Shown here piece after piece: positions 269 to 20,797 of a stretch of DNA of 64,000 nt (the first letter of the stretch is position 1; each line of letters opens with the position of its first letter). The notes beneath the pieces are model-generated. The model had not been told where the DNA came from and searched no databases. It saw only the letters and a program-made list of their open reading frames with translations. Made by a program: the position numbers and the translations under genes. Source of the stretch: Eubacteriales bacterium (GTDB lineage Bacteria > Bacillota > Clostridia > Lachnospirales > Lachnospiraceae); the NCBI GenBank assembly GCA_030524545.1, contig JAUNGM010000022.1, positions 1 to 64,000 on the forward strand, in the 5' to 3' direction.

Positions 269-1351
269 TCACAGCACTTCATGTAAGACCGACAGTCCAT
301 ATTCCGCCAGACTGTGGTCTTCTTCACCTGTGCCGCCGCTGACGCCAAGGCCTCCGATGATGGTATCGCCTACCTTGATCGGGACACCGCCGCCGAAGAT
401 GACGATCTTGCCGCCGTCCATCTTATCCACACCGTAGAAGGTGCCGCCCGGCTGTGCAAGCCCGGCAAGTTCCATGGTGGACATCTTCACTGCGACAGAG
501 GTGTATGCCTTTTTTACGGCCACATCAAAACTTACAAGAAAAGCACCGTCCATCACATGTACTGCAATGGGGTTTCCGTCCGGCCCGCAGACAGCGATCA
601 CTGCCTTCTTACCGCGGCGGTTTGCTTCCTCTTCGATCCTCTCGATCAGACGTTTGGCACTGTCCAGAGTGATTCTTCCCTGGATTCCCATACGTTTCAG
701 TATTTCCTGAATCACAGCTTCTTCACTTACTGTATGATTCTCATGATTTTCCATACCGGCAACCTTTCCTGATTCTGCGGTTACAGAAGTCTTCTGCACT
801 GCCTTATTTTCTTCGGACACTGCCGCTTCCTTCCCATGACCCTTACCTTCATTCAGTGCATCCGTATATCTTGCCAGCACATAGAGATAATCTGCCAGGC
901 GGTTCATATATTTCTTCGTTCCGGTATCCGCGCCGAACTTCACACTGACAAGCGCCAGTGCCCGTTCTGCCCTTCTTGCCACCGTGCGGGCCACATCGAT
1001 CTCCGCAGACAGGCGGCAGGCACCCGGAAGGATAAATTTCTTCGGACGCTCAAACAGCCCTTCCATCCGGTCGATCTCTTCTTCCAGAACCGCTGTCTTA
1101 TCGTCACTGATCTTATACTCTCTGTTATAAGGGTCTGCCACTCCAGCCATCACCGTGATCAGCGTTGCCTGTATTTTTTCCAGAATGCGGATCACATCCG
1201 GATCATCCAGCATGGTCTTCACCAGCCCCAGATGACTTGTCAGCTCATCTATGGTTCCCACAAGCTGAATGCGGTCATCCGACTTGGAAACGTTTTTTGT
1301 ACGGATCAGATCTGTAGTCCCTTTATCTCCGTTTTTTGTATAAATGTTCAT
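269..1351 (-). CDS. pduO: ATP:cob(I)alamin adenosyltransferase PduO, two-domain
   Basis: Makes adenosylcobalamin from ATP and cob(I)alamin, the cofactor of the diol dehydratase encoded upstream. Residues 1 to about 165 form the PduO-type catalytic domain: the N-terminal TKNGDKGTTDL loop binds ATP and VARTVARRAERAL is the conserved Arg-rich helix. A charged linker (about 170-205) joins it to a GlcG/HbpS-type domain (about 210-360) with the typical GGxPI...IGGLGVSGG segment, which binds haem in PduO of other bacteria. The 360-residue length fits full-length PduO. The ATG overlaps the pduH stop by 4 nt, so the two are translationally coupled. It is the last gene before a strong terminator. Confidence 0.95.
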   Translation of the reverse strand: MNIYTKNGDKGTTDLIRTKNVSKSDDRIQLVGTIDELTSHLGLVKTMLDDPDVIRILEKIQATLITVMAGVADPYNREYKISDDKTAVLEEEIDRMEGLFERPKKFILPGACRLSAEIDVARTVARRAERALALVSVKFGADTGTKKYMNRLADYLYVLARYTDALNEGKGHGKEAAVSEENKAVQKTSVTAESGKVAGMENHENHTVSEEAVIQEILKRMGIQGRITLDSAKRLIERIEEEANRRGKKAVIAVCGPDGNPIAVHVMDGAFLVSFDVAVKKAYTSVAVKMSTMELAGLAQPGGTFYGVDKMDGGKIVIFGGGVPIKVGDTIIGGLGVSGGTGEEDHSLAEYGLSVLHEVL

Positions 1352-1704
1352 AACGGCATCCCCCGTAAACCGTAAATTGTCTTAAACGGCATCTTCTTGA
1401 TCGCTCTTGCGCTGTTTGCCCCAAGGTTTCTGCACTGCCAGAAAGCAGGAGCATTCAGCTCAAACACATTCCGGCCTTTGGGAAGGCGCTGCATCTGCAT
1501 GGCAAGACGGTTTCCAAGCATCCCGATCCCGGAGCCCAGCATGGATTCATTCGCCGCCTCATAGGCCAGCGTATCCAAATCCCCTTCATGATCCTGCACC
1601 TGAAAAAGAACGCCTTCTTCCTCTATCCCGGCACAGACCTCCCGAAGCAGATCCTCGTCCGCCCCGCAGCAGTAAATAATGATCGTCGGCTTATTCACAA
1701 CCAT
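1348..1704 (-). CDS. pduH: diol dehydratase reactivase small subunit
   Basis: Small subunit of the ATP-dependent chaperone that removes damaged cobalamin from inactivated diol dehydratase. The protein has 118 residues, the family length, with PTIIIYC near the start and a GSGIGMLGNRLAMQ segment typical of PduH/DdrB, which shares its fold with the dehydratase medium subunit. It starts after GGAGG and is coupled to pduO by a 4-nt overlap. The partner large subunit is immediately upstream. Confidence 0.92.
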   Translation of the reverse strand: MVVNKPTIIIYCCGADEDLLREVCAGIEEEGVLFQVQDHEGDLDTLAYEAANESMLGSGIGMLGNRLAMQMQRLPKGRNVFELNAPAFWQCRNLGANSARAIKKMPFKTIYGLRGMPL

Positions 1705-1735
1705 AACAAATCCCTCCGAATCGCCAGAATCGCCT

Positions 1736-3559
1736 TTAACGGCTGTTACTCAGATATGACAGCAGCAAGCCTGTCGCCACCGCATTCCTGGGTCCTTCCA
1801 CACCGCGGATATTTCCTCTTCCGCAGACGATCCTGTATTCTGACAGCGCTTCCATCAGCATTTCCGGAATCTCAAAGTCCTCCGCAGATCCGCCTACCAG
1901 AACCACATTCGGAATCTTCCGCAGGTCATGTCCCGGCGCTACGGTCTTCAGGGCCCGAATCGCATTTCTTACGAATACTTTGCGTTTCGCCTCCCTGCGT
2001 ACCTCCAGGATCTTTTCCATCGGAATGTCCTCTTCCACCTTCAGCATCTCTCCGGGAGCCAGAAGCACCACATGTCCGTAATACCTGGGATCAATGGATT
2101 CTTCAAAGAACTGCATTGCCCCGTTTTCCAGACGCATATGGAACAGGCTCTCCACCTTGCCCATGGGGTACTTCTTGATCTGCTCCGCCGTCGTCCGACT
2201 ATGGAGCCCAAGCTCTGTCTGGATCAGCATGGATACCAGCTCGCCCGCTCCGGCCTGGTGAGTCGTCCTCACGCTTCCGTCCGTTTCAAGCACAGCGGCA
2301 TCCGTTGAACCGCCGCCCATGTCCAGAATCGCCAGGGGCAGCTTCGTTCCCGGTGTGGTCATTGCTCCGAGAGAAGCCATTACAGCCTCTACTCCGGCAA
2401 CCACAGCCTTGATATGAAGCTCCTGCTCCAGTCTTTCTGCGATCTTCTGCATGGGCAGATGCTGGGTCTTCACCATTGCGGCAATTCCCACAGCCTTCTC
2501 CATACACGTTTCACCTGCCAGGGATCCGGAAATCTCCACAGGCGCCAGCGTATCCACGGCCAGGATATCCGTGATCCGGATCTCACTGTCATGCTCGTGT
2601 TCCTTTGCCACATCTGCCATACTGGTTTTGATCCTGCGCAGCATATTTCCCACGTTGGTATCCTGCTGCCCGTCAATGTCGCGGATTTCCCCGGCAGTTC
2701 CCAGGGCTTTCATGATCTCATCCGCTCCGGCATCAATATTGATCCTGACTTCCCGCTCTCCGTGAAAAACAACCTCACCTGCGGGAAGAACGTTTTCTCT
2801 GATATTTCCATGAGGGGTACGGATCACGACTGCGCTCCGTTTCCCTATAAGGCTCTTTGCAATGGGAGTCACGGATTTCGTTTCCTCCGCATTTAAGCCT
2901 AAAAGCGTCGCAATCCCATAGGGATTGGAAAGCATCCGGATACTGGTTCCCGGCAGCGCCACCTCAATGGCTGCCATCTTCCCTTCCGGCACTTTGCTGA
3001 TATGACGCACTTCATCCACAATGGGCATCTTCCTGCTCAGGCGGTTTTCCACAAGAAGGGCTTCATCCGCCTGAAGGATCAGTCCCCGGACATCCAGTTC
3101 CGGGATGTGCTGGTTCAGCCTTGCCGCCACTTCCTCATAGGAAAACTTGCTTGCCGCTGCCACTATATACGGCACGCCCGGTTTTCCCTTCCAGATATTT
3201 TCCAGAAAAAGCAGCTCTCCGACAGCCTCTCCTGCACCGGCCGGTGTCGACGGGTTATGCCCGATCATGGAAGATTCCGTGATAATGGTTTCCGTAATGG
3301 TCTCCATGGCCGTATCGCCGATGACAGGGGCTGCCTCGTTTAAGCGCACCAGATCAAGAGCACTCAGGGGCTGGCGGATCTTATCCATTGCTTCCTCAAG
3401 TGCAGCCTTGATTCCCAGAACATTAGGAAGAGTTCCTTTCGTCCCGGTAGTCATACGGGAAGCGCTGGAGAGAAAACGGAAGCTTCCGTCCTCCCCCACT
3501 GCGCCGACACATACTTCAGTTGTGGAATTTCCTATATCAACACCTGCAATCAGTTTCAA
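1736..3559 (-). CDS. pduG: diol dehydratase reactivase large subunit
   Basis: ATPase subunit of the diol dehydratase reactivating factor. Hallmarks are the N-terminal IAGVDIGNSTTEV phosphate-binding loop of the actin/Hsp70-like ATPase fold, LAILDMGGGSTDAA as the second nucleotide loop, and a C-terminal VVLVGGSAEDFEIP. I chose the TTG codon at 3559 (Leu-Lys-Leu-Ile-Ala-Gly) because GGGGAA lies 6 nt upstream and the TTGA overlaps the pduE stop. A longer reading frame exists upstream but lies inside pduE. About 607 residues, normal for PduG. Confidence 0.94.
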   Translation of the reverse strand: MKLIAGVDIGNSTTEVCVGAVGEDGSFRFLSSASRMTTGTKGTLPNVLGIKAALEEAMDKIRQPLSALDLVRLNEAAPVIGDTAMETITETIITESSMIGHNPSTPAGAGEAVGELLFLENIWKGKPGVPYIVAAASKFSYEEVAARLNQHIPELDVRGLILQADEALLVENRLSRKMPIVDEVRHISKVPEGKMAAIEVALPGTSIRMLSNPYGIATLLGLNAEETKSVTPIAKSLIGKRSAVVIRTPHGNIRENVLPAGEVVFHGEREVRINIDAGADEIMKALGTAGEIRDIDGQQDTNVGNMLRRIKTSMADVAKEHEHDSEIRITDILAVDTLAPVEISGSLAGETCMEKAVGIAAMVKTQHLPMQKIAERLEQELHIKAVVAGVEAVMASLGAMTTPGTKLPLAILDMGGGSTDAAVLETDGSVRTTHQAGAGELVSMLIQTELGLHSRTTAEQIKKYPMGKVESLFHMRLENGAMQFFEESIDPRYYGHVVLLAPGEMLKVEEDIPMEKILEVRREAKRKVFVRNAIRALKTVAPGHDLRKIPNVVLVGGSAEDFEIPEMLMEALSEYRIVCGRGNIRGVEGPRNAVATGLLLSYLSNSR

Positions 3560-3951
3560 AGAAGAATTCCCCTTTTTTCGTAAATTTCCGCAGCTTCCAG
3601 CACCAGTTTGGCACAATGAGGCGCCTGATATTTCTCAAGCAGCTCTTTTGCCATCAGAACCAGTTCATTTTTGGTAGAACGGTTTGGGCGAAGCTTGTTG
3701 TACATGTTCAAAATCACATCATCCGGAACATTGGAAAGCTCGGCAGCCCTCTCAAAATTCGCTTCCATCTGGGGATTGTCTGCAGAAGCTGCCACCTGTC
3801 CCTGCCTCTTAAGCATTTCCGGCGAAATCTTAATATCTTCCGCAGTCACGCTGCCGCGCTTTACCTCATCAAGAGTGATCTGGGAAAGCTTTTTCCCTGT
3901 TTTGGAGGTAATGGTGTCGGCTTCGTACTGCCCTAAAGGATACTTACTCAT
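3556..3951 (-). CDS. pduE: B12-dependent propanediol dehydratase small subunit
   Basis: Small (gamma) subunit of adenosylcobalamin-dependent diol dehydratase. About 131 residues with the YPLGxYxAD start and the GKKLSQITLDEV region typical of PduE, then an acidic helical middle and a C-terminal LVLEAAEIYEKRG. The ATG at 3951 is preceded by GGGAGG and overlaps the pduD stop by 4 nt. Gene order pduC-D-E-G-H-O is the classical arrangement. Confidence 0.94.
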   Translation of the reverse strand: MSKYPLGQYEADTITSKTGKKLSQITLDEVKRGSVTAEDIKISPEMLKRQGQVAASADNPQMEANFERAAELSNVPDDVILNMYNKLRPNRSTKNELVLMAKELLEKYQAPHCAKLVLEAAEIYEKRGILL

Positions 3952-4631
3952 CTTGCGCCCTCCCATACAATCATGCCTTTTTCCGGATCAAGCTGCTCTG
4001 TTTCGATGATGTGCATCAGGGCGGCCTTTACCTGGAATTTCGCACGCACCATAGGGTCGTTGGTGCACTCGATCGGAGTCACCTTTTCCCCTTTGACATA
4101 TTTTGCTGCGTTTCTGCCGATCTTACGGTAGGTCTCAAGATTCATCAAAGGTGCCTGGGGGAAAAGCTCCAGATTCGTCAGAGGATAGAGATCCTTCTGA
4201 TGAATGACGGTGGTTCCCTTGGACTGGATTCCGATTCCGATTCCGGAGCCGGAAAGCTTGGCTGCCTGGAGGGCCATAAAGCCTACATCCGAGGTATCCA
4301 GCACTTTTACCACACGGGAAACCATGCCTTCTTCTTCGATTCCTGCTTTCACATTGCGCAGCACCTCATCCAGCGGAATCCCGCCGATGGTCTTGGTGAT
4401 CTCCGTCTGGAAAGCAGCCCCTACACCAATGACAACTTCCTTGGGGTCTGTCCCCTGTTTTGCCCTTACCGCACCTTCATAGGAACGCTTCGGGCGCATT
4501 CTTGTCTTCCCTGCAAGGCTCTGGGTACCGGAGCTTTTGGGAGACTCATCCGGGAGCTTCGCACCATTTCGCTGCAACTGCTCCACGACCGCTTTGGTTA
4601 TGGCTTGTATCAGTTGTTCATTCACTTCCAT
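3948..4631 (-). CDS. pduD: B12-dependent propanediol dehydratase medium subunit, with encapsulation peptide
   Basis: Medium (beta) subunit of diol dehydratase, which forms the cobalamin face with PduC. Residues 1-20 (MEVNEQLIQAITKAVVEQLQ) form an amphipathic helix followed by a polar linker, the standard N-terminal targeting helix that directs PduD into microcompartments. The body contains VIGVGAAF and GSGIGIGIQSKGT, matching the cobalamin-binding fold of this family. The helix is direct sequence evidence that the B12 enzyme is meant to enter the same shell as the glycyl-radical system. RBS TAGGAGG. Lies 11 nt after pduC. Confidence 0.95.
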   Translation of the reverse strand: MEVNEQLIQAITKAVVEQLQRNGAKLPDESPKSSGTQSLAGKTRMRPKRSYEGAVRAKQGTDPKEVVIGVGAAFQTEITKTIGGIPLDEVLRNVKAGIEEEGMVSRVVKVLDTSDVGFMALQAAKLSGSGIGIGIQSKGTTVIHQKDLYPLTNLELFPQAPLMNLETYRKIGRNAAKYVKGEKVTPIECTNDPMVRAKFQVKAALMHIIETEQLDPEKGMIVWEGAR

Positions 4632-4642
4632 GGCACAGCCTC

Positions 4643-6307
4643 CTAAAATTCATTTACATCAATTCTGTGAGGAATCGCTTTGATCTCCTCCCAGCGTTTT
4701 CCGTCAACACGATAGCCGGTTCCCGGTCCCATATAGTCGTTTGGAGTATTCACGCCGGACATAACCTGGAAGTTCTCATCCAGGATGGCTGCGGTGTGCA
4801 TATAGTCTCCGATGACTCTCTGCTTCAGCATGTTCAGGATATTTCCTGCCAGCTTTTCAAAACCGCTTTCAGCCAGTGCCTTTACCACATCGATTCCCGT
4901 AATGCCGCGTTTCAGCATATCATCCGCAGCCATCAGGTCGGAAGCTACGTCTCGCTTCAGCGTATCCTTGCTTCCGTGTGCATAGGTCACAGCCTCTACC
5001 TGCTCATCGGTCACTTCTGTCAGGCCGAGATATTTGAAGACAGCCTGAACAGCTTTGCCTGCTTCACGGCGGACACGGATCACATCTTCCTCCGTTACCG
5101 GACGCAGACCGCCGTCCACCTGCATATCTCTCTGCATGACATTATAATCGTCAAAATCTTCCGCATCAAAATTGGAGCCTGCGAACATGTTGTCATAGTT
5201 CGGCTCTGCCGCATAACCGGAGAAGATGAAATCCGTACCCGGCATAAACTGCAGCATGGTTCTGGCAGTTCTTCTCATATCGGAATTGGAGAAGCTCTGG
5301 TCATTGGAAGATGCACATTCCAGTCCCAGAAGAGCTGCCACCAGGTTCTCTCCGATCACCTCACGGATACCTGCCGGAACGCCGGCGGCAACACCGATAC
5401 AGCTTACGGATCCATTCTGGATTCCCTGGCTTCCTGCACCCTTTGTCACATATAAGCATCTGCATTCCAGATACAGCATGGATTTGCGTTCACTGGAGCC
5501 CATCAGGACTTCGGAACCGGAACCGGAGGTAAAACGTACCTTCAGGCCGCGGGATGCATAGGCGGAATTCAAAAATGCTTTGGAATACGGTGTATCGTCA
5601 CCGTCAATAAAAACTTTTTCCGTACCATAAACAGAAAGTGTCTCTGCATAGGTAGTCAGTCCGCGGATTCCAAGCTCCAGCTCGGTAGCTTCCTCTGCGG
5701 AACACTGTGTCAGGACACCCGGACGGCCTACCTGGGAGCCGATCAGCAGCGCCATGGCACTGAACGGTGCATATCTGGCAACACCCATGGTGGTTTCTTC
5801 TTCACTGAACCCGCGAAGCGCTCCCTCTGCTGCGTCAGCCGCGATCTGCACGGGGTCGTCCTTCAGGTTGGTGATGTGCGCCTGATTGCCCGGCACCTTT
5901 CTGGCACGCATCTTCTGCATGCCCATCATCATTTCCACTACATTTAAGTAGTTGATGACCTCCACCATCTTGGCAGGAGTGATACCGGATACGATTTCCA
6001 GGATTTCTTTACGGGAGGTCTGGATGTCCACGATCTTCCGTGCAATTTCCAGAGAGGGAATTGCCATAGAGCGTTCTGCACGATCAATGCGGATGGCATA
6101 ATCTGCAATAAACTGATCCAGGAAATCAAAATCGGCCCGTTTCTTCCCATCCAGTTCTGTTATGATTCCATTTTCTATTACTATAGACGGCTTTGGATCG
6201 TAGGGGCTTTTCATGGCAATAAAGCCCATCTCCGGCCATTCGTCAATAAATCCGTCTTTATTGACAGCCCGCCGGTCCAATGCCTCGATTCGTTTGGATC
6301 TTTTCAT
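4643..6307 (-). CDS. pduC: B12-dependent propanediol dehydratase large subunit
   Basis: Large (alpha) catalytic TIM-barrel subunit of adenosylcobalamin-dependent diol dehydratase (1,2-propanediol to propionaldehyde). Family features include the MKRSKRIEALDRRAVNKDGF start, PSIVIENGIITELDG, VGRPGVLTQCSAEEATELE, SGSGSEVLMG, CAS(S)NDQSFSNSDMRRTAR and NTPNDYMGPGTGY. With the start at 6307 the protein has 554 residues, as expected. A longer in-frame extension to 6376 is rejected because it would translate a hairpin. First gene of the B12-dependent half-operon. Confidence 0.96.
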   Translation of the reverse strand: MKRSKRIEALDRRAVNKDGFIDEWPEMGFIAMKSPYDPKPSIVIENGIITELDGKKRADFDFLDQFIADYAIRIDRAERSMAIPSLEIARKIVDIQTSRKEILEIVSGITPAKMVEVINYLNVVEMMMGMQKMRARKVPGNQAHITNLKDDPVQIAADAAEGALRGFSEEETTMGVARYAPFSAMALLIGSQVGRPGVLTQCSAEEATELELGIRGLTTYAETLSVYGTEKVFIDGDDTPYSKAFLNSAYASRGLKVRFTSGSGSEVLMGSSERKSMLYLECRCLYVTKGAGSQGIQNGSVSCIGVAAGVPAGIREVIGENLVAALLGLECASSNDQSFSNSDMRRTARTMLQFMPGTDFIFSGYAAEPNYDNMFAGSNFDAEDFDDYNVMQRDMQVDGGLRPVTEEDVIRVRREAGKAVQAVFKYLGLTEVTDEQVEAVTYAHGSKDTLKRDVASDLMAADDMLKRGITGIDVVKALAESGFEKLAGNILNMLKQRVIGDYMHTAAILDENFQVMSGVNTPNDYMGPGTGYRVDGKRWEEIKAIPHRIDVNEF

Positions 6308-6376: not shown

Positions 6377-7528
6377 TTAGAATGACCAAAGTTTGGTATA
6401 TATCTTAACGATATCTTCCTTGGTAGGAACTCTCGGATTATTTGCCGTGCAGGTATCCGCAAGTGCAGCTTCCGCCATCTTATCAACAGCGGCAAAATAT
6501 GCATCCGGGGTAATCGTTCCGATTTCCTGTATGGTCAGCGGAATATTCATTTCTTTCTGCATAAACTGGATCCAGTTTACCAGGGAGCGTACGCTCATAA
6601 CTTTGTTGTAATTGCTCAATCCAAGGATATGGGCAATATTTGCATAGCGCTTCACAGCAGGCAGATATTCCTTCTGGCTTCTGCTGTGCTTGTTGATGTT
6701 CGCATTATATTCCACAATGTGCGGAAGCAGCATTGCATTTGCCCTTCCGTGAGGAATATGGAACACAGCACCAAGCTGATGAGCCATACTGTGTGTGATT
6801 CCGAGACCTGCCGTATTAAAGGAAAGTCCGGCAAGACAGGAAGCCACATGCATTTTCTGGCGGGCATGCATATCGCTGCCGTCCAGATACGCACGAAGCA
6901 GGAATACACCGCAGATTTCGATGGATTTCTCTGCAAGTGCGGACGAAAATTCATTATGCTCCGTACTCACATAGGATTCCAGGGCATGGGTAAATACATC
7001 CATACCGGTATCTGCTGTGATCGCCGGCGGTACACTCTTTACCAGCTCCGCGTCCAGGATGGCTTCATCTGCCGTCAGGCTGTCAGATACAAGCGGATAT
7101 TTCACCTTTGCATCCGTATCATTGACAACGGCAAAGGAAGTCACTTCCGATCCTGTTCCGCTGGTAGTAGGAATCGCAATCAGTCCTACCGCACCGTAAT
7201 TATTGATTTTTAAAGCAAACTCACGGATGGCTTTGGATGAGTCAATGGCAGAACCGCCTCCGACTGCTACAATGGCCTCCGGCTGAAACTGAAGGAATTT
7301 TTTTACACCTTCCGCAATTTTTCCTACCGGTGCATCCGGTACTACGTCCTGGAAAATATCGTATTCGATTCCGCCCTTTTCCAACGGCGCAGTGATCAGG
7401 TCAATCATCTTGCTCTGTACAACAAAAGGGTCTGTAATGATCAGAACTCTTTTGTAAGGAAGAACACGAAGCCTGTCAAGGGAGTTCTCCCCAAAATGAA
7501 TGACTGTTTTCATTTCAAAGGTTTTCAT
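6377..7528 (-). CDS. iron-containing alcohol dehydrogenase (PduQ-like)
   Basis: Group III Fe-dependent alcohol dehydrogenase, probably reducing propionaldehyde to 1-propanol to regenerate NAD+ in the microcompartment. GGGSAIDSSKAI is the nucleotide-binding loop; the His metal ligands lie in GMDVFTHALE, THSMAHQLGAVFHIPHGRANA and the following helix. 383 residues, family-typical, with no obvious targeting helix. RBS AAAGGAGC. Lies between the DeoR regulator and pduC and is followed by a hairpin, so it may be the last gene of the upstream transcript. It could serve other short alcohols. Confidence 0.88.
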   Translation of the reverse strand: MKTFEMKTVIHFGENSLDRLRVLPYKRVLIITDPFVVQSKMIDLITAPLEKGGIEYDIFQDVVPDAPVGKIAEGVKKFLQFQPEAIVAVGGGSAIDSSKAIREFALKINNYGAVGLIAIPTTSGTGSEVTSFAVVNDTDAKVKYPLVSDSLTADEAILDAELVKSVPPAITADTGMDVFTHALESYVSTEHNEFSSALAEKSIEICGVFLLRAYLDGSDMHARQKMHVASCLAGLSFNTAGLGITHSMAHQLGAVFHIPHGRANAMLLPHIVEYNANINKHSRSQKEYLPAVKRYANIAHILGLSNYNKVMSVRSLVNWIQFMQKEMNIPLTIQEIGTITPDAYFAAVDKMAEAALADTCTANNPRVPTKEDIVKIYTKLWSF

Positions 7529-8985: not shown

Positions 8986-9001
8986 GTTCTGCACGTCCTT
9001 T

Positions 9002-10330: not shown

Positions 10331-10334
10331 GGCG

Positions 10335-12220: not shown

Positions 12221-12496
12221 TCAGATCGTAGGAAGGATCTTTTCAACGTCGTTGTGCGGTCTCGGAATTACGTGGGTTGCTACTAATTCGCCAAGTCTGG
12301 ATGCTGCTGCGCTTCCGCTTTCTACTGCTGCTTTTACAGCTCCTACATCGCCGCGAACCATAACGGTTACAAGACCGGAACCGATCTTCTCTGTTCCTAC
12401 TAAAGTAACTTCTGCTGCTTTTGTCATTGCATCTGCTGCTTCGATTGCAGCGGTGAGTCCTCTGGTTTCTACCATTCCTAAAGCTTCCTGTGCCAT
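12221..12496 (-). CDS. hexameric shell protein, PduA/J type (copy 2)
   Basis: Single BMC-domain hexamer, 91 residues, nearly identical to the 11361-11639 product including the KIGSG pore and the [11 protein letters not shown] end. Differences cluster in the first helix region and at the C-terminus. RBS AGGAGG. Having two copies in one operon raises the dosage of the main facet protein relative to minor hexamers. Confidence 0.95.
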
Positions 12497-12927: not shown

Positions 12928-14157
12928 TTATTTGTTGATCACTGCGATCTTAAGACCGGTCATTGCCAGGTTCGTCTCAAGAGCTTCGTTGATCTGCTCT
13001 AACGGGAACCTGTGTGTGATCAGCTCGGACATCGGAAGGCCGATGCCTTTTGCTCTCTTCAGGAAATCAAACGTAGTTGCGTAATCTCTCAGGTTGTATA
13101 CCCAGGAACCAACCAGGTTGATTTCTTTGGAGCAGAGATCAAAATGCGGATTGATGGTTGCATCTCCGCCATTGATGAAGAAGCCAAGCTCACAAAGTCC
13201 GCCGCCGTTGCGGATGAATTTGTAAATGTTTGCATGCGCCTTCGGATTGCCTGTACACTGGAATGCAAAATCTGCCAGATGTCCGCCCAGAGCAGTCTTT
13301 ACGCCGTCTGCCAGTGCTTCGATCCCCTGGAAATCTCCGAAGTTTACAGTCTGGGTTGCGCCCATTCTCTTAGCAAAGTCAAGACGCTGCTGATTTCCGT
13401 CAACAGCACAGATATTTTCAATACCCATAGTGCGAAGAACGGCAATACAGATTAGACCGATCGGTCCGCATCCCTGTACAACAACTCTGCTGTTGAATTT
13501 CAGGATGCCGGTGGTTTTTGCTCTCTCAACTGCATGTACCAGAACGGCACACGGCTCGATGAGAATACGGGAATCCAGATCCAGATCGCTTACATTAAAG
13601 AATGTGGATCCGAAGTTTCCGCCTCTGATGAATATGTAATCTGCAAACCAGCCGTTGAATTTTACATCATCGTCCGGAAGCAGTCCGTATACATCAGCGC
13701 CGCCTACATTTTTCTTATTTAAGTCAAACATGGTGATCTCAGGATCATCCTTGAAGATCATACAGGTAACTACCTTGTCACCGATCTTAACCGGCTTACC
13801 GGCAGTATCGGTCTTTACGTTTTTACCCATGGCAACGATCTCACCGGTGCCTTCATGACCAAGTACAACCGGAATCAGACCGAACGGGTCGTTTTTGTAT
13901 TCGTGTGCGTCCGTACCGCAGACACCGCAGCCCTCTACCTTAACCAGGATATCATCATCGCCTACCGGCGGAAGAGGATACTCCTGAAGTTCAAAGTGTT
14001 TCTTTGCGGTCATCATTGCTACTCTTGCGGTTTTCGGGATAGCGCCGCCTGCTGCTTTAGCCGGAGCCGGAGCTGCGGATGCTGCCGGTGCGTTTCCCGT
14101 CATGCCGGAGAGAACCTGTTTCACGATCTCTTCAATATTAATATTATTCATATCCAT
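12928..14157 (-). CDS. zinc-binding alcohol dehydrogenase with encapsulation peptide
   Basis: Medium-chain (GroES/Rossmann) dehydrogenase. After an N-terminal targeting helix (NINIEEIVKQVLSGMTG, residues about 4-20) and an Ala/Pro-rich linker (about 22-45), the catalytic domain begins: GCGVCGTDAHEY holds the catalytic Zn cysteine and GHEGTGEIV the His-Glu pair; the Rossmann loop is VVQGCGPIGLI. The usual four-cysteine structural-zinc loop is not obvious. Such a dehydrogenase with a targeting helix occurs in fucose/rhamnose glycyl-radical microcompartments. It may reduce lactaldehyde to 1,2-propanediol or propionaldehyde to propanol. Start at 14157 follows AGGAGGAG. Confidence 0.9.
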   Translation of the reverse strand: MDMNNINIEEIVKQVLSGMTGNAPAASAAPAPAKAAGGAIPKTARVAMMTAKKHFELQEYPLPPVGDDDILVKVEGCGVCGTDAHEYKNDPFGLIPVVLGHEGTGEIVAMGKNVKTDTAGKPVKIGDKVVTCMIFKDDPEITMFDLNKKNVGGADVYGLLPDDDVKFNGWFADYIFIRGGNFGSTFFNVSDLDLDSRILIEPCAVLVHAVERAKTTGILKFNSRVVVQGCGPIGLICIAVLRTMGIENICAVDGNQQRLDFAKRMGATQTVNFGDFQGIEALADGVKTALGGHLADFAFQCTGNPKAHANIYKFIRNGGGLCELGFFINGGDATINPHFDLCSKEINLVGSWVYNLRDYATTFDFLKRAKGIGLPMSELITHRFPLEQINEALETNLAMTGLKIAVINK

Positions 14158-14174: not shown

Positions 14175-15563
14175 TTAACGAATGCAAAGGCTGTCAGACA
14201 TTACGCAGCGTCTTCTCTTGGTAAAGGTGCTTGCGCTTGTAAGTCCCTCACCTGTACGGCTAGCGATGGTAAATGTACAGTAGCCTTCTCCGCCGAATCC
14301 AAGAGCTGCATAAGACGGTGCATTCTTCACAAGGATCGCGGTATCGATTGCTTTCGCATATTTGGTGATATTGTCAATGTTTTTGGAATGGATGTGTGCG
14401 GAATGGCGGTTGCCATGCTCAAGCCATACGGCCTGTTCTACCGCATCATCAAAATCTTTGGCTCTTACAACACCGAGGATCGGCATCATAAGCTCTTCTG
14501 CGATCAGCGGATGTTCCTTCGGTCCTTCGAATACGATGCAGCGGATATTAGCCGGTACATTGACTCCGATCATGGACAGAAGTGTTCTTGCATCACGTCC
14601 TACGCATTTACGGTTCAGCTTGCCGCCAGCCAGAACAACTGCGGTCAGCTTGTCCTGTTCTTCCTTGGAAGCCAGGTAGCAGTCATTCTCAGTTACCAGG
14701 TAGTGCATCAGCTCATCTGCTATAGAAGAAACTGCCACGATTTCTTTTTCTGCGATACAAGGAAGGTTATTGTCAAAGGTACATCCGTTTACGATATCCT
14801 GGGCAGCCTTACGGATGTCTGCTGTCTCGTCTACAAGTGCCGGAGGGTTGCCTGCGCCTGCGCCGATTCCTCTCTTGCCGGAGGAAAGAACGGCTGTTAC
14901 AACGCCCGGGCCGCCGGTTGCTGCGATCAGCGGGATATCTTTATGTTTCATCATGATATTGCTTGTTTCTAAGGTAGGTTTCTCTACGGTTACGGCAATG
15001 TTGTCCGGGCCGCCTGCTTCCAGGGAAGCTTCGTTTACCAGGTTGATTGCGTAGATAGAGGTTTTGATAGCTGCCGGATGCGGGTTGAATACAACGGTAT
15101 TTCCGCCTGCCAGCATGCCCATTGTGTTGCACAGGATGGTCTCACTCGGGTTGGTACACGGAGTGATCGCTCCGATGACACCGAACGGTCCCATTTCGAT
15201 CAAAGTAAGTCCTCTGTCTCCGGACCATGCAGTTGTGGTAATATCTTCGGTTCCCGGGGTCTTGTCAGCTACCAGGTGGTGCTTGAGGATCTTGTCTCCT
15301 ACATTTCCCATTCCGGTTTCTTCCACACCCATGCGTGCGAAGATTTCTGCATTTTCTTTGATTTTTTTACGGATGCAGGTAATGATCTTTTCTCTCTGGT
15401 CCATGGACATTCTTTTTACGATGAGTTCAGCTTTTTTGGCAGCCTCGATCGCATCATTCATATCCTTAAAAATGCCATGTTTCCCGGCCGGAGCGTCAGC
15501 AATCTGCATTTTTGCCATTACTTCCTGTACAATTTCCTGTACCATGCTTTCACTAATTGGCAT
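14175..15563 (-). CDS. pduP: CoA-acylating propionaldehyde dehydrogenase with encapsulation peptide
   Basis: Oxidises propionaldehyde to propionyl-CoA with NAD+. Residues 2-20 (ISESMVQEIVQEVMAKMQI) form the N-terminal amphipathic helix typical of PduP targeting, followed by a short linker. The aldehyde dehydrogenase body shows GPFGVIGAITPCTNPSET, ATGGPGVVTAVLSSGKRGIGAGAGNPP and the catalytic cysteine in FDNNLPCIAEKE. 462 residues, as usual for PduP/EutE. RBS AAGGAGG. Lies between the aldolase and the zinc dehydrogenase genes. Confidence 0.95.
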   Translation of the reverse strand: MPISESMVQEIVQEVMAKMQIADAPAGKHGIFKDMNDAIEAAKKAELIVKRMSMDQREKIITCIRKKIKENAEIFARMGVEETGMGNVGDKILKHHLVADKTPGTEDITTTAWSGDRGLTLIEMGPFGVIGAITPCTNPSETILCNTMGMLAGGNTVVFNPHPAAIKTSIYAINLVNEASLEAGGPDNIAVTVEKPTLETSNIMMKHKDIPLIAATGGPGVVTAVLSSGKRGIGAGAGNPPALVDETADIRKAAQDIVNGCTFDNNLPCIAEKEIVAVSSIADELMHYLVTENDCYLASKEEQDKLTAVVLAGGKLNRKCVGRDARTLLSMIGVNVPANIRCIVFEGPKEHPLIAEELMMPILGVVRAKDFDDAVEQAVWLEHGNRHSAHIHSKNIDNITKYAKAIDTAILVKNAPSYAALGFGGEGYCTFTIASRTGEGLTSASTFTKRRRCVMSDSLCIR

Positions 15564-15598: not shown

Positions 15599-16459
15599 TT
15601 ATTTCAGTCCTAACTGAGCCATTACCTGTTTGGTGATGTTTGCTACCAGTTCAGCATCTGCAGCCTTCGGTGCTTCGCCGCCGCATTCTTTGCCGACGAA
15701 ATCATACTGATATCCCGGGAACTGTTTGTATTCGTCGCTGTGGCAGGCACCGCCGCAGTTATGACAGTTCTTTCCGTCTTTGTTCAGGCAAAGGCTTGCC
15801 GGATGTTTGCCGGGCATACCGAATTTACGGCGGATCGCATACAGTTTTTCAACGTTCTTCTCATCGAATTCCTTCGGGCCGCCCAGAAGTTTGGACTGGT
15901 ACAGAAGCTGTGCATAGAATTCAACGGATTCCATCTTCATGTATGCAGCGTTCAGGTCTGTGCTCCAGGTCAGTGCGCCATGGTTCTCAAGAAGAACTGC
16001 ATCGAAATATGGAAGGTATTTTTCCAGGTTGTCCGGAATTTCCATTGTGGAAGGTGTACCATATTCAGCGATCGGCACGCATCCAAGTGCGATAACTGCT
16101 TCCGGCATGATCGGCTGTGTCAGCGGAATGCCTGCGATTGCAAAAGAAGTTGCATAAATCGGATGAGCATGTACAACAGATCCAACATCCGGTCTCTTCT
16201 CATATACTCTCATATGCATCTTGATTTCTGAAGATGGCTTGAATCCCGGGTTAGCCTGAATTACATTACCCTTAGCATCTACTTTACAGATGAATTCCGG
16301 GGTCATGAAGCCTTTGGATACACCTGTCGGTGTGCAAAGAAATTCATTGTCATTCAGTTTTACAGAGATGTTACCGTCATTGGCTGCCACCATGTTGCGG
16401 TTGTAGATTCTTCTGCCGATGTCACAAATCTGTTTTTTAATTTCGTACTCGTTTACCAT
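15599..16459 (-). CDS. class II aldolase (L-fuculose/rhamnulose-phosphate type) with C-terminal encapsulation peptide
   Basis: Cleaves a 6-deoxyketose 1-phosphate to dihydroxyacetone phosphate and lactaldehyde. The zinc-binding HAHPIYATSFA and later LLENHGALTW are characteristic, as is NDGNISVKL near the start. Beyond the aldolase core there is a Cys/His-containing linker (CLNKDGKNCHNCGGACH) and a C-terminal helix (AELVANITKQVMAQLGLK) that matches targeting helices of shell cargo. Lactaldehyde would therefore be released inside the compartment. An internal promoter lies just upstream. Confidence 0.9.
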   Translation of the reverse strand: MVNEYEIKKQICDIGRRIYNRNMVAANDGNISVKLNDNEFLCTPTGVSKGFMTPEFICKVDAKGNVIQANPGFKPSSEIKMHMRVYEKRPDVGSVVHAHPIYATSFAIAGIPLTQPIMPEAVIALGCVPIAEYGTPSTMEIPDNLEKYLPYFDAVLLENHGALTWSTDLNAAYMKMESVEFYAQLLYQSKLLGGPKEFDEKNVEKLYAIRRKFGMPGKHPASLCLNKDGKNCHNCGGACHSDEYKQFPGYQYDFVGKECGGEAPKAADAELVANITKQVMAQLGLK

Positions 16460-16505: not shown

Positions 16506-16534
16506 ATTTTACTCCATTAAACACGACTTGTCAA
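16506..16534 (-). promoter_or_regulatory. internal promoter upstream of the aldolase gene
   Basis: On the minus strand TTGACA (16534-16529), a 17-nt spacer and TAAAAT (16511-16506) form a near-consensus sigma-70-type promoter 47 nt before the aldolase start. Directly upstream lie A/C-rich repeats (AACAACACGAAACAACAAG and AACAAAAAACAACAC, about 16537-16600) that resemble the repeats at the main promoter and could bind the cluster's DeoR protein. Confidence 0.75.
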
Positions 16535-16560
16535 GATAATCTTGTTGTTTCGTGTTGTTT

Positions 16561-17055
16561 TTATTGGTTTGTAGGTGTTGTTTTTTGTTGTTTTTCTTTT
16601 TCTTCTGTTTCCCAGGGCATCACATCGCCTTCTTCCCGGAGATATTCCAGGATTTCCGGCACTCCCTGATGGATCTTGGAGTCCACATAAAAGATTTTTC
16701 TGCAGCCCGCAAGCCGAAGCCAGGCGGCTGCACGTTCCACGTTGGCATTGGGATGATTGATCTTGGTCACGATGCCGATCACCTCACGGTTTGCCATGCA
16801 GGTGCAGCATGGCGGAAAGAGGCAGTACGGCTCGGTCGCAGAACAGATCAGGCCCACAATATCCGCTTCGTAGGTATAGAGAGCCAGTGCATGCCCAAGG
16901 CCTTGGGTCTGGGCATATTCTCCCGGGGTGTCAATGATAACGTCAAAGTTGTTCACATACTGGGTTTTGTGATAGTGAATCTTTTCCCCTTTCAGGGCCT
17001 GGGTCAAAGTGGTCTTTCCTGCTTCGCTGCGGCCCATCAGGGCAATTTTTTTCAT
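16561..17055 (-). CDS. eutP: EutP/PduV-type small GTPase
   Basis: Ras-like P-loop NTPase associated with microcompartments. The Walker A loop is GRSEAGKTTLTQ (residues 8-19), the Walker B/G3 is DTPGEY, and the G4-like TKINHPNA follows. 164 residues, close to the family. Homologues have been proposed as acetate kinases or compartment-positioning proteins; the function is not settled. Located between the PduU/EutS-like shell gene and the internal promoter. The 3' end of the gene overlaps the A-rich repeat region. Confidence 0.9.
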   Translation of the reverse strand: MKKIALMGRSEAGKTTLTQALKGEKIHYHKTQYVNNFDVIIDTPGEYAQTQGLGHALALYTYEADIVGLICSATEPYCLFPPCCTCMANREVIGIVTKINHPNANVERAAAWLRLAGCRKIFYVDSKIHQGVPEILEYLREEGDVMPWETEEKEKQQKTTPTNQ

Positions 17056-17062: not shown

Positions 17063-17440
17063 TTATGTCCTCGTGATCGGACAAACGGCGAATCCCAGTT
17101 TTTCGCCTACATAGTCCAGTATTGCATTGACAGATGCTTCCACTTCCGATACGGTGCCCGTAATGATCAGGCTTCCGCTGAAGCGGTCTACAAATCCAAG
17201 CTCCACACCGGAAGACTTGATCGCAATGTCTCCCATGATAATCGCCGTCTCCGCAGGGCTGACCGTCAGAATTCCGATCGCAGACCTGGAATACTCAACG
17301 GCAGGATCCAGTCCCAGCTTTGTATATAATACCTGATCCGGATTGGCAATGATATGCGCCAGTGAAATCTGCTTGCCAGGCACAAGTTCCTGCACGATGC
17401 GCTGTTTTGCTTCCGGTGACAGATCGTCGAAATATGCCAT
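17063..17440 (-). CDS. circularly permuted hexameric shell protein (EutS/PduU)
   Basis: 125-residue permuted BMC-H protein. The N-terminal RIVQELVPGKQISLAHIIANP strand forms the six-stranded beta-barrel cap over the pore; SAIGILTVSPAETAIIMGDIA and LIITGTVSEVEASVNAIL form the BMC core, and the protein ends with CPITRT as in EutS. Likely a minor facet protein with an occluded pore. RBS AGGAGG. The first shell gene after the activase. Confidence 0.94.
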   Translation of the reverse strand: MAYFDDLSPEAKQRIVQELVPGKQISLAHIIANPDQVLYTKLGLDPAVEYSRSAIGILTVSPAETAIIMGDIAIKSSGVELGFVDRFSGSLIITGTVSEVEASVNAILDYVGEKLGFAVCPITRT

Positions 17441-17442
17441 TT

Positions 17443-18234
17443 TTAACCTCCTATCTGACAGTCCAGATTGCAGACGGCATGTACTGCCTTTTTCAATGTT
17501 TCCATGTGTTCCGCAGTGGGAGGAAGGATTCCCTTCATCCGGTATTCCCTTCCCAGCCCGTCGTATTTATCCTGGCCAAGCCTGTGGTATGGCAGAAGAT
17601 GAATCTTCTCCACCCCCGGCAGGGTTGCCGCAAAAGAAGCGATTCCCTGAATTTCTTCCACCGTATCGTTAAAGGTAGGAATCACAGGAACCCGGATGAC
17701 CAGCTTCGTTTGCCCGGACAGGGCAGTCTTTCTGGCATTTTCCAGCATCAGCTCATTGGATCTGCCTGTAAATTCCTTATGCTTTGCCGGATTCGTATGC
17801 TTGATGTCCATCAGATACAGATCCAGATACGGCAGAATCATTTCGATACGCTCATAGGGTGCACACGCCATACTCTCAATGGCAGTATTGATCCCCCGTT
17901 CCTTCGCTGCCCGCAGAAGATCCCGGGCAAATTCCGGCTGGCAGAGACATTCTCCTCCGGAGAGGGTCATGCCGCCTCCGGAGCGGTAATAATAAGGCCT
18001 GTCCTTTTCCACCTGGTCAATCATTTCCCGGACAGTCACATCCCTGCCGATCACCTTATCCTCGCCCTGCACCTTCATAGTCTGGATCGCATATTCCTGA
18101 GACTCCGGATTGCAGCACCAGCGGCAGCGAAGGACACAGCCTTTCAAAAATACAATTGTACGGATTCCCGGACCATCATGGATAGAATAGCGCTGGATAT
18201 CAAAGACCCTGCCTTTTCTGTCTAAATAATCCAT
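17443..18234 (-). CDS. glycyl-radical enzyme activase (radical SAM)
   Basis: Installs the glycyl radical on the dehydratase encoded immediately upstream. The radical-SAM cluster motif CVLRCRWC has Cys33, Cys37 and Cys40, preceded by the activase fingerprint DGPGIRTIVFLKGC. GGGMTLSGGE is the SAM-contacting motif. At 263 residues it lacks the extra ferredoxin domain seen in longer activases, the compact form known for propanediol-type glycyl-radical dehydratases. Starts after AGAGGAG; 37 nt from the dehydratase stop. Confidence 0.95.
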   Translation of the reverse strand: MDYLDRKGRVFDIQRYSIHDGPGIRTIVFLKGCVLRCRWCCNPESQEYAIQTMKVQGEDKVIGRDVTVREMIDQVEKDRPYYYRSGGGMTLSGGECLCQPEFARDLLRAAKERGINTAIESMACAPYERIEMILPYLDLYLMDIKHTNPAKHKEFTGRSNELMLENARKTALSGQTKLVIRVPVIPTFNDTVEEIQGIASFAATLPGVEKIHLLPYHRLGQDKYDGLGREYRMKGILPPTAEHMETLKKAVHAVCNLDCQIGG

Positions 18235-18271
18235 AACTCCTCTTTTCCGGCCGAATGGCCATTATGGCAGT

Positions 18272-20797
18272 TTAAAACCCCTGTTCGGTTCTGCGGATGA
18301 TGTCATCCTGAAGGGAACGGGACAAAGTAGTAAACAATGCACTGTAGCCTGCCACGCGGACAACCAGATGTTTATATTTCTCCGGGTTCTTCTGCGCATC
18401 CAGAAGCGTTTCTCTGCTTACTACATTAAACTGCATATGCATTCCCTTCTGATCAAAATAGGAACGGATCAGCGCAACGAATTTCTCCAGTCCCTCTCTT
18501 CCCGACAGTGCGGAAGGATGGAATTTCTGGTTAAACAGTGTTCCGTTGGATACAATAAAATGATCCAGCCTGGATACCGAGGTTGCTGCTGCTGTCGGGC
18601 CGTTCACATCCTTGCCTGCGGACGGGGAAACACCGTCGGCCACAGGAGTATGTGCATAACGTCCGTCCGGGGTCGCTCCTGTCTGTCCGCCCAGGGGAAC
18701 GTTTGCTGATACAGGATATAATCCGGCCTGATACTGTCCGCCTCTGGGGTTCTGATACTTCTCCATCGGACGGGTATATGTATAAGCAACATCCCTTGCA
18801 AAATAATCCACTTCCGGAATGTCGTTGCCGAATTTCGGCACTTCCTCAATGAGGTTATGGATTTCTTCATATCTGGCATTCTGTTCCGGTGACGGCTTCA
18901 TATTCATCACTACATTTAATATAGAAGAAACTGTTTCCTCATTGATCGTTCTTCCCTGCTCCTGAAGGCCTTTGACAATTGCTGCTGTCACTTCAGCCAC
19001 AGTTATCTCATCCAACCCTTTGCCAAAGTTCCATGCCAGTGCATCCTTATACTCCTGCATGGAAACCTTCTTCTCCTGGTAGACCAGCTTGCGGATCGCA
19101 TACAGGGAATCGGCCATATTGGCAATCCCAAAGCCCTGCGGACCTGTAAAGTTGTACACCGCACCGCCCTCCTGTACGGTCTTGCCCCGTTTCAGGCAGT
19201 CATCCACCATACTGGAAAGGAACGGCAGCGGGCAAAGCTCCGCATGCGCCACATCAATGGCATTGTCTGCATTTACCAGAAGGGAAATGCAGTATTCCAT
19301 CTGTTTCTTATAAGCGTCATAAAATTCTTCAAAGGTGGTCATCTTCGTGACATCACCGGTAGGAATCCCCACCATTTCACCCTTGTCCATACCGTTGGCA
19401 AAAACCAGCTCCATCGGGCGGCACATATTGAAGAACGCCGCATCGTGCCACCCTTCCGTCTTGCCCGCCTTCTGCGGCTCCACGCATCCGATAATGTTGT
19501 ACTCCCGGGCATCTGCAAGGGACAGCCCTCTGTTCTGCAGGGAAGGGATGATCACTTCGTCATTATAGTAAGCCGGCAGGCCGATTCCCGTTCTGGTAAG
19601 CTCTGCAGCCTTGATCAGAAATTCGTGAGGGGAGCCGTTCCAAACCCTCACAGACAGGGACGGCTGCGGCAGATGTACATGCATGGATGCCTGAATGCAC
19701 ATAATAGAAAGGTCGTTGGTCACATCCCGCCCGTCCTTGTCCTGACCGCCTGCGATCAGGTTCTGGAAAAGGCTGTATCCCGCAAAGCCTTCCGCAGATG
19801 CGGCATCACGGCATTTGTTCAGGTCATTGAGCTTTACCCAGATGCAGTCCATCAGTTCCTGGGCAAATTCCCGGGTGATCATTCCTTTCTTCATATCCTT
19901 CTGATAATAAGGATACATATACTGGTCAAAACGTCCCGGAGAAATGGAATGTCCGCTGGACTCCATCTGCAAAAGCTGCTGCACAAACCAGAAGGACTGG
20001 CAGGCTTCGTAAAAGCCGTCGGCACCTTTTGCCGGAACATGGCTGCAGTTTGCCGCAATGGTCAGAAGTTCCTGTTTTCTTACAGGGTCGCCGCACCTGG
20101 AAGCCATTTCCTCTGCCAGCACCGCATAGCGCTGTGCATATTCGATCACTGCCCTGCAGCTTAAGATCACTGCCTGCAGGAAACGGGAACGCTTCGCATA
20201 GTCGCCGTCACCCACCTGGCACTGGTCCAGTTCCGCCTGGGCTTTGGCAATGATGCCCTCAAATCCGATGGCAAGCACCTCTTCATATTTTACAGTTACA
20301 TGTCCTACACCATTATAAAAATAGTTGCCTGGTGTAAAGATATTGTGTTCAATCGCTTTGATTGCTTCCGGAGCCATGTAGGAAGTAGCCAGTTCACTGG
20401 TGGTTTTTCCTTTCCAGTATTTGTGGATCTCCCGAAGCTCCTGCTTCGTTTCTTCTGCGATGTAAAACGGGTCCGCGCTCCTCGTCTCAACCGTATCCAG
20501 TTCATCCTCCAGCCACTGGTAGGAAAATTCCGGAAAAGTCTGGCATCCTCTGGGTGCCAGGGTACTGCTTCCTACGATCAGCTCCTCATCACGGATGATG
20601 ATGGGAATGTGACGCAGGATATGGGCAAAAGCTTCTGCACGCCTTGTAATAATGGGCTGGCCCTCCGTAGCCATATAAGACTCTGTGATAAGTCTGGCTC
20701 TGGCAGATTCGATTACCGGCATCTTCGCATACAGATTGTCTACTAATCTGGTGATTCTGGAAGATTTTGGAATATCTGTGGTATTAAACATCTCCAC
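18272..20797 (-). CDS. glycyl-radical (B12-independent) 1,2-propanediol dehydratase
   Basis: Radical dehydration of 1,2-propanediol to propionaldehyde without cobalamin. With the GTG start at 20797 (841 residues), the thiyl-radical cysteine is Cys438 in NIIGCVEPQ, the general base is Glu440, and the radical glycine is Gly817 in RVAGYSALF near the C-terminus. His166 (GVGHVTVKYEE) fits the diol dehydratase subgroup rather than pyruvate formate-lyase or choline lyase. An alternative ATG at 20791 has better RBS spacing. First gene after the main promoter, so it should be the most strongly expressed enzyme. Extremely oxygen-sensitive when active. Confidence 0.94.
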   Translation of the reverse strand: MEMFNTTDIPKSSRITRLVDNLYAKMPVIESARARLITESYMATEGQPIITRRAEAFAHILRHIPIIIRDEELIVGSSTLAPRGCQTFPEFSYQWLEDELDTVETRSADPFYIAEETKQELREIHKYWKGKTTSELATSYMAPEAIKAIEHNIFTPGNYFYNGVGHVTVKYEEVLAIGFEGIIAKAQAELDQCQVGDGDYAKRSRFLQAVILSCRAVIEYAQRYAVLAEEMASRCGDPVRKQELLTIAANCSHVPAKGADGFYEACQSFWFVQQLLQMESSGHSISPGRFDQYMYPYYQKDMKKGMITREFAQELMDCIWVKLNDLNKCRDAASAEGFAGYSLFQNLIAGGQDKDGRDVTNDLSIMCIQASMHVHLPQPSLSVRVWNGSPHEFLIKAAELTRTGIGLPAYYNDEVIIPSLQNRGLSLADAREYNIIGCVEPQKAGKTEGWHDAAFFNMCRPMELVFANGMDKGEMVGIPTGDVTKMTTFEEFYDAYKKQMEYCISLLVNADNAIDVAHAELCPLPFLSSMVDDCLKRGKTVQEGGAVYNFTGPQGFGIANMADSLYAIRKLVYQEKKVSMQEYKDALAWNFGKGLDEITVAEVTAAIVKGLQEQGRTINEETVSSILNVVMNMKPSPEQNARYEEIHNLIEEVPKFGNDIPEVDYFARDVAYTYTRPMEKYQNPRGGQYQAGLYPVSANVPLGGQTGATPDGRYAHTPVADGVSPSAGKDVNGPTAAATSVSRLDHFIVSNGTLFNQKFHPSALSGREGLEKFVALIRSYFDQKGMHMQFNVVSRETLLDAQKNPEKYKHLVVRVAGYSALFTTLSRSLQDDIIRRTEQGF

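Follow-up and report, generated by a model that had tools for sequence, protein, structure and literature searches.

Why should one bacterial microcompartment (BMC) locus encode two unrelated dehydratases, one a glycyl-radical enzyme (GRE) and the other dependent on B12? The locus that raises this question lies in a 64,000-nucleotide stretch of DNA (the window: bases 1–64000 of the 66,761-bp contig JAUNGM010000022.1, assembly GCA_030524545.1) from a Blautia-type genome of 4.34 Mb, assigned to the genus Blautia. It is a GRM5-type fucose/rhamnose metabolosome locus whose end carries pduCDE-GH-O, with no change of strand. The answer that we favor, with moderate confidence, is that the locus specifies a GRM5-type metabolosome with two interchangeable 1,2-propanediol dehydratases that are induced together and share one shell, cofactor supply deciding between them.

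Gene content and relation to known microcompartments

The cluster is a single run on the minus strand, from 20797 to 269, and the largest intergenic gap within it is 227 nt (11994–12220). Its genes, in cluster order, are:

18272–20797, minus strand: glycyl-radical 1,2-propanediol dehydratase (GRE)
17443–18234, minus strand: GRE activase, radical SAM, without ferredoxin insert
17063–17440, minus strand: EutS/PduU-like BMC shell protein
16561–17055, minus strand: EutP/PduV-like protein, last gene of proposed transcription unit 1
15599–16459, minus strand: class II aldolase (fuculose/rhamnulose-phosphate type), opening proposed unit 2
14175–15563, minus strand: PduP-type CoA-acylating aldehyde dehydrogenase
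12928–14157, minus strand: zinc alcohol dehydrogenase (Zn-ADH); start probably 14157, open frame from 14187
12589–12903, minus strand: BMC-H shell protein
12221–12496, minus strand: BMC-H shell protein
11676–11993, minus strand: BMC-H shell protein
11361–11639, minus strand: BMC-H shell protein
10676–11320, minus strand: PduL phosphate propanoyltransferase
10335–10601, minus strand: BMC-P (EutN/CcmL) vertex protein
9002–10384, minus strand: PduS (RnfC-like)
8437–9015, minus strand: PduT BMC-T shell protein
7583–8353, minus strand: DeoR-family regulator
6377–7528, minus strand: iron alcohol dehydrogenase (Fe-ADH), with a putative PduQ role
4643–6304, minus strand: PduC, large subunit of the B12-dependent dehydratase; start most likely 6304
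3948–4631, minus strand: PduD, medium subunit with N-terminal targeting helix
3556–3951, minus strand: PduE, small subunit; open frame from 3966
1736–3616, minus strand: PduG, reactivase large subunit; start uncertain
1348–1704, minus strand: PduH, reactivase small subunit (Dehydratase_MU match)
269–1351, minus strand: PduO cobalamin adenosyltransferase with DUF336-like domain

A first, sequence-only reading of this DNA had described two dehydratase systems in one cluster with a shared shell gene set, and the genes that it named are indeed all present in one minus-strand run. It put the PduCDE-GH-O set at 269–6307; the PduC start is most likely 6304.

Three features tie the locus to GRM5: a diol-dehydratase GRE and its cognate activase lie in a BMC locus, that activase has no ferredoxin (pfam00037-type) insert, and a class II aldolase and Zn-ADH stand alongside PduS and PduT. 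GRM5 encodes no cobalamin-dependent enzymes according to the available text of PMC4207490, whereas here PduCDE-GH-O occupies 269–6304, and because of its presence we call the locus a GRM5-type hybrid and not plain GRM5. From the PDU type it has PduCDE, the reactivase and the adenosyltransferase, but, as far as this contig covers the locus, there is no PduB-type BMC-T protein or PocR-type regulator; PduT is the sole BMC-T protein there, and the regulator is of the DeoR type.

The GRM5 loci of Roseburia inulinivorans and Clostridium phytofermentans share with the window the GRE, short activase, aldolase, Zn-ADH, PduP, PduL, PduS, PduT, DeoR and shell, but lack the pduCDE and pduGH genes found here, as far as the available text of PMC3557285 goes; the same text reports induction of the C. 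phytofermentans locus by fucose and rhamnose, and the Zn-ADH of GRM5 loci is described as a lactaldehyde reductase in the accessible part of PMC6325248. The PDU (pduCDEGHO) metabolosome shares PduCDE, GH, O, P, L, S and T and the PduD targeting helix, whereas the window’s shell and regulator are of the GRM5 kind, and its GRE, aldolase and Zn-ADH are extra. In Clostridium methylpentosum DSM 5476, a B12-dependent dehydratase gene stands beside an aldolase-type fucose/rhamnose BMC locus, but the available text of PMC6620236 mentions no GRE in that locus. PduCDE and PduC2 occur in the same genome in 28 Clostridiales and one Bacillus, giving two dehydratases per genome as here, but the available text of PMC9403272 does not report them sharing a locus. 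In PDU1AB/GRM4, a closely related kind of shell takes either signature enzyme; these are swapped, by the account in the available text of PMC8217296, whereas in the window they coexist. Thus, the presence of both enzymes in one genome, PduCDE beside a fucose/rhamnose BMC and the exchange of signature enzymes are known from these last three sources. That described loci carry one or the other enzyme type, as the sequence-only reading had it, agrees with the available text of PMC3557285, PMC4207490 and PMC6325248, and we found no description of the pair in a single locus in the open-licence literature, taken as main texts without supplements and in part (including PMC8156839, PMC6384099 and PMC11414229).

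The pair recurs in Blautia and beyond

We surveyed 64 genomes of the genus, 397 of the family and 392 of the order. In the genus, PduC is found in 33 genomes, a GRE at least 69% identical to that of the window in 40 (41 at E ≤ 1e-100, the extra one being 40% identical) and both enzymes in 22. Fourteen of these 22 have both on one contig and strand, 10.9–12.1 kb apart, and the same contig, strand and spacing in 14 of 64 genomes is more than chance would give; in the other eight the enzymes are on different contigs, in some perhaps through assembly breaks. Both enzyme types in one cluster, the finding that the sequence-only reading had set against novelty, are thus routine within the genus and recur in three other genera of the family; the cluster is not unique. 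Hybrid loci are present in three cultured strains, Blautia caecimuris DSM 29492 (G716), Blautia schinkii DSM 10518 (G728) and Blautia sp. XA-2221 (G745), and because hybrids occur in named strains, co-expression and co-encapsulation are testable.

In the family sample, PduC exceeds the cut-off in 26 of 397 genomes and a GRE is found at E ≤ 1e-250 in 73. In 16 of the 26 PduC genomes there is also a GRE with ≥69% identity, and five of these 16, from four genera, have both enzymes on one strand within ~12 kb (G000, which is the window’s genome, G237, G099, G340 and G015). PduCDEGHO and GRE-activase are consecutive within one shell locus in G099; in G340, G015 and G237 the two dehydratases lie together, the 50–60 kb fetched gave no matches to the window’s shell genes, and shell genes were found on other contigs. 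PduC is present in 29 of 392 genomes of the order sample, where a GRE search that took in 26 of these 29 (three had been searched earlier) and three PduC-free genomes matched in 10 of 29 at E ≤ 1e-200. Five of the ten are outside the genus, four with the genes on separate contigs and one with the genes >1 Mb apart. In four other families, PduC occurs in 22 genomes, and all six mapped loci read aldolase-PduCDEGHO-PduP-Zn-ADH with no GRE in the stretch; shell genes come next in five, and the stretch from the sixth (G599) stops at Zn-ADH.

Three states of one locus

The mapped genus loci comprise 14 hybrids, seven GRE-only loci (and, on a short contig, that of G754) and 12 in which PduC has no adjacent GRE. 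The core is closely similar in all three states, with both enzymes (14), with GRE alone (the seven and G754) and with PduCDE and shell alone (10; in the stretches fetched from G738 and G752, the other two PduC-only genomes, shell genes are absent). The GRE is on another contig in five of the 12 PduC-only genomes (G703, G731, G752, G763 and G767), and the other seven have none at E ≤ 1e-100. In the seven GRE-only loci, an open PduO frame follows Fe-ADH, and the intervening PduCDEGH is absent. The adenosyltransferase part of PduO is kept without PduCDE in all seven (for example, G263:C11 from 294117), and the second domain of PduO may have a B12-free role in these loci.

Among 80 named loci around Zn-ADH, 10 have both enzymes within 10 kb, 33 GRE only, 10 PduC only and 27 neither, many of these 27 being clipped by contig ends. 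Seven of eight PduC-only named loci that were examined have a PHP-domain gene followed by EutS or aldolase with no GRE between them, the eighth (L188) being without the PHP gene. The right-hand neighbor of the locus is L-fucose isomerase (fucI, identified in G705), mostly preceded by an AraC-type gene, in 18 mapped genomes (six hybrid, seven GRE-only and five PduCDE-only). Six other hybrids have different genes at this position, and the contigs of the window and G737 give no view there.

Some individual loci differ from these states. L195 (Blautia sp. RGIG4371) is a similar locus with neither GRE nor PduC in the 9–10 kb either side of Zn-ADH, a possible fourth, dehydratase-free state. G703 has GRE and activase at G703:C96:34268-36790, where the window’s shell genes were not matched in the fetched 20 kb, and its PduCDE is in a shell locus on a different contig. 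L186 and L189 are both named Blautia schinkii, the former with GRE only and the latter with both enzymes; their GREs are 85% and 87% identical to that of the window, and one name may be wrong.

The two dehydratases and their partners

Both enzyme sets look complete. The closest solved structure to the GRE is diol dehydratase 5i2a/5i2g, which we take to be the enzyme from Roseburia inulinivorans. The alignment to 5i2a is nearly end to end, over residues 4–840, and includes GCVEP and RVAGY, presumably the sites of the catalytic cysteine and of the glycyl radical. With 5i2a the alignment is in one stretch, but with B12-independent glycerol dehydratase 1r8w it is in two, the first of which ends at residue 591. 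NCBIfam equivalog models do not name the substrate of the GRE, as its matches are below cut-offs except that to the general PFL2-3 subfamily. The activase has 263 residues, of which 60–252 align to 98–290 of TIGR02494, a general activase profile, and its only Pfam matches, Radical_SAM and Fer4_12, are over the radical-SAM part; activases without the ferredoxin insert are particular to GRM5 in the available text of PMC6325248.

PduC aligns along its length with both glycerol and diol dehydratases, scoring 858 bits against the glycerol dehydratase alpha chain 1iwp and 817 against diol dehydratase 1dio. PduD aligns with the diol dehydratase beta chain 1dio_B from residue 1 onward, whereas the glycerol enzyme 1iwp_B aligns from residue 50 only. 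Across 19 loci, the N-terminal helix of PduD is conserved and the linker variable, which bears out the N-terminal extension that the earlier reading had taken for a targeting helix. PduO matches adenosyltransferases and a second, heme-degrading/DUF336-like family. For GREs, an insert of roughly 60 residues is a predicted targeting element in the accessible part of PMC6325248, and this insert and the PduD helix together suggest that GRE and PduCDE could be encapsulated together.

Two promoter-like sites and a shared element

Four sites divide the cluster into two proposed transcription units:

20905–20968, minus strand: A/C-only element (putative DeoR operator), upstream of promoter 1
20849–20877, minus strand: promoter of unit 1, TTGACA-17-TATAAT (12/12)
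16539–16610, minus strand: A/C-only element, upstream of promoter 2
16506–16534, minus strand: promoter of unit 2, TTGACA-17-TAAAAT (11/12)

Because such promoter matches are as common over the whole region as in shuffled sequence, the case for the promoters rests on conservation. Upstream of GRE, TTGAC and TATAAT are invariant, with small spacing changes, in 14 of 14 aligned loci (11 hybrid and three GRE-only). Upstream of the aldolase, CTTGAC and a –10 box are kept in nine of 11 aligned hybrid loci; of the exceptions, the stretch used from G749 was too short and G750 is without CTTGAC. There is no conserved promoter upstream of PduC.

We defined the element as ≤5 G+T per 50 nt with ≥6 C and ≥25 A, and also tried six and eight G+T. 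With ≤5 G+T, the two strands of the window contain exactly two elements, each directly upstream of a promoter, and none of 1963 random 400-nt window pieces had a minimum lower than 10 G+T. Elements before both GRE and aldolase are found in five of the 14 hybrids at ≤5 G+T, nine at ≤6 and 12 at ≤8. The 80 named loci (1.47 Mb) contain, at ≤6 G+T, 52 elements on the cluster strand and one on the other; the 52 are spread over 41 loci and all lie within 500 nt before cluster genes (aldolase 30, GRE 15, EutS 3, PduT 3 and PduC 1). Spacing between C residues in these 52 elements is enriched at 9–12 nt (z 4.3–8.2) and 23 nt (8.2), with z inflated by related rows, and the GRE site alone reaches a strict 11-nt array (32, versus at most 27 in 40 Markov copies). 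Predicted sites of RhaR rhamnose regulators, which belong to the DeoR family, are two imperfect direct repeats with a 10–11 bp period (PMC3870299, available text). The locus DeoR may thus repress both units, and a similar element at both promoters argues for joint induction rather than alternation.

Elsewhere the element has other partners. In L239 (Tyzzerella sp.; 1561–1651), it directly precedes PduC and PduCDEGHO forms its own unit upstream of the aldolase; in G099, the aldolase (7 G+T) and PduC (8) are each preceded by it, and GRE (19) is not.

Cobalamin riboswitches and B12 supply

Even at a permissive threshold, neither unit of the window has a cobalamin riboswitch. The window does contain three:

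22038–22232, plus strand: cobalamin riboswitch nearest to the cluster, 1.2 kb upstream of GRE, reading away from it to a cysteine-rich small-domain gene
34561–34769, minus strand: cobalamin riboswitch before a CbiK-type gene
53411–53599, minus strand: cobalamin riboswitch before an apparent peptide/nickel-type ABC transporter (by eye)

None was seen in five of seven relatives. The B12 synthesis gene cbiD is present in 57 of the 64 genus genomes, in 33 of 34 of the better ones and in all seven mapped GRE-only genomes. Because cbiD hardly varies, there is next to nothing to set against enzyme state, and we discarded B12-synthesis potential as the factor that decides which enzyme is kept. A Rfam match to Clostridiales-1 RNA at 12060–12208 was likewise rejected (26.8 bits versus a gathering threshold of 48, with an unexceptional fold z of –1.75). 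Also in the window, 43863–45563 encodes a protein with PF09820 (AAA-ATPase-like) and PF08011 (PD-(D/E)XK nuclease) domains.

History and selection

We made a quick tree from nine proteins of the locus, concatenated for 43 rows, the mapped genus rows and 10 chosen named loci, with one Zn-ADH row removed from the alignment for an internal stop. Blautia loci form one clade, through which the hybrids are scattered, and some basal forks are weak. Over 36 scored Blautia rows, parsimony requires at least four changes for GRE and five for PduC and places both enzymes at the base, whereas 500 shuffles gave means of 11.3 and 8.1, with as few changes in none and two of them. With whole-genome rows only and satellites left out, three and three changes suffice and the base state is the same, and the result also holds when L177, scored GRE-free from 2.4 kb of upstream sequence, is rescored as unknown. 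For PduC over the full tree with outgroups, there are seven changes and the root state is undecided. Parsimony thus puts both enzymes in the ancestor, and the pair probably predates the split of the Blautia species.

In hybrids, pairwise distances for GRE and PduC track those of the core (r 0.87 and 0.80). In eight hybrid pairs, at synonymous distances of 0.35–1.7, dN/dS is 0.026–0.078 for GRE and 0.004–0.042 for PduC, indicating purifying selection on both. In a PduC tree, Blautia shell-locus proteins form one clade (97% SH-aLRT) that excludes those of G340/G015, G099 and G237, so the enzymes were probably joined more than once, independently in these other Lachnospiraceae; the groups of a separate GRE tree were not used because the label “Lachno_sat” in it wrongly took in GRE-only Blautia rows. 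PduS, PduD and PduE (window 10676–9002 and 4631–3556) have no synonymous difference from G749 and PduL has a dS of 0.06, while for PduC, PduG and GRE dS is about 1; this mosaic reflects recombination between related species.

Discussion

In the scheme that we propose, the aldolase and Zn-ADH would convert fuculose- or rhamnulose-phosphate into 1,2-propanediol, which would be dehydrated either by the GRE, made from unit 1 (GRE-activase-EutS-EutP), or by adenosylcobalamin-dependent PduCDE, made from the end of unit 2 (aldolase...DeoR...PduCDEGHO), and PduP, PduL and the alcohol dehydrogenases would complete the pathway within the common shell. The two units would be two transcripts; when the local DeoR repressor leaves matching operators at both, they would come on together, and both enzymes would be made simultaneously and loaded into the same shells. 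Which enzyme is active would then be set by B12 status and by redox or oxygen history, through adenosylcobalamin supply and survival of the glycyl radical. Because some closely similar loci have only the GRE and others only PduCDE, either dehydratase is probably able to serve the pathway, and the two are most simply seen as redundant in reaction and different in cofactor. We give about even chances to the broader proposal of a dual-engine organelle: one shell with two unrelated radical dehydratases under one sugar-responsive DeoR, ancestral to Blautia and kept as insurance in case B12 runs short or oxidation destroys the radical.

Several observations weigh against our favored explanation. Two of the 14 hybrids lack one element even at eight G+T, only 41 of the 80 named loci carry any, and where the pair is co-located in G340, G015 and G237, neither PduC nor GRE is preceded by one (15–23 G+T). 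A pattern derived from the two window sites has three genome-wide matches, all at those sites, but its reversed control has seven elsewhere, so it is the placement of matches that counts and not their number. C spacing in the elements is also enriched at 3 nt (z 10.1, again inflated by related rows), the array at the aldolase site fails the strict 11-nt spacing test, and the link between DeoR and the element is one of position and resemblance. Helical moments (PduD 0.51, PduP 0.39, Zn-ADH 0.48 and PduL 0.41) do not separate the targeting helices from 18 control proteins (range 0–0.63), and because they fall inside the control range, the case for PduD targeting rests on alignment and conservation. 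PF00936 shell genes are present on four further contigs of the window’s genome (C3, C29, C30 and C40), so this locus need not provide its only shell. Some losses of an enzyme could in part be exchanges by recombination, of which a trace exists. Finally, in two of the seven relatives the first cluster gene is preceded, on its own strand, by a cobalamin riboswitch, which lies 1.7 kb upstream of GRE in L186 and about 1.8 kb before EutS in L178.

These two riboswitches, the one 1.2 kb upstream of the window’s GRE and the two separate promoter-like sites, one for each dehydratase unit, are what a transcriptional switch has in its favor, with GRE made under B12 shortage and PduCDE under ample B12 or once oxygen has been met. 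The earlier reading had proposed switching by cobalamin supply, and we find little support for it at the level of transcription and hold it to be quite improbable: the window riboswitch is on the plus strand and reads away from GRE, those of L186 and L178 are cut off from the cluster by an oppositely directed PHP gene, the units themselves and five of seven relatives have none, the elements at the two promoters are similar, and cbiD is nearly invariant, also where GRE is the only enzyme. The same reading had suggested that the enzymes act on different diols, 1,2-propanediol versus glycerol; in such a division of labor, GRE would take 1,2-propanediol, and glycerol or some other diol would fall to PduCDE. 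The higher score of PduC against glycerol dehydratase and the kinship of GRE to a characterized diol dehydratase fit such a split, but PduD bears the N-terminal extension of the diol enzyme, to which 1iwp_B does not align, some closely similar Blautia loci have PduCDE as their sole dehydratase, and the six mapped loci of other families join PduCDEGHO to the aldolase, PduP and Zn-ADH without a GRE in the stretch, all of which makes separate substrates unlikely.

The hybrid might instead be a redundant passing state, made by recombination and resolved to one enzyme or the other, with no selective value of its own. In its favor, loci with a single enzyme of either kind are common, and what they lack is bounded by gene ends. 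However, the hybrid state appears ancestral and is spread over the tree, both enzymes are under purifying selection at synonymous distances of 0.35–1.7, and the pair seems to have been joined separately in other genera, so we consider a mere passing state rather unlikely. Two interchangeable dehydratases induced together and sharing one shell remain our preferred explanation.

Published microcompartment types are each defined by one signature enzyme in the texts available, whereas this locus has kept two and its relatives have dropped one or the other. The states of the locus are thus a natural series for asking what each dehydratase is good for inside the same shell, and the finding bears on how gut bacteria form propionate from fucose.

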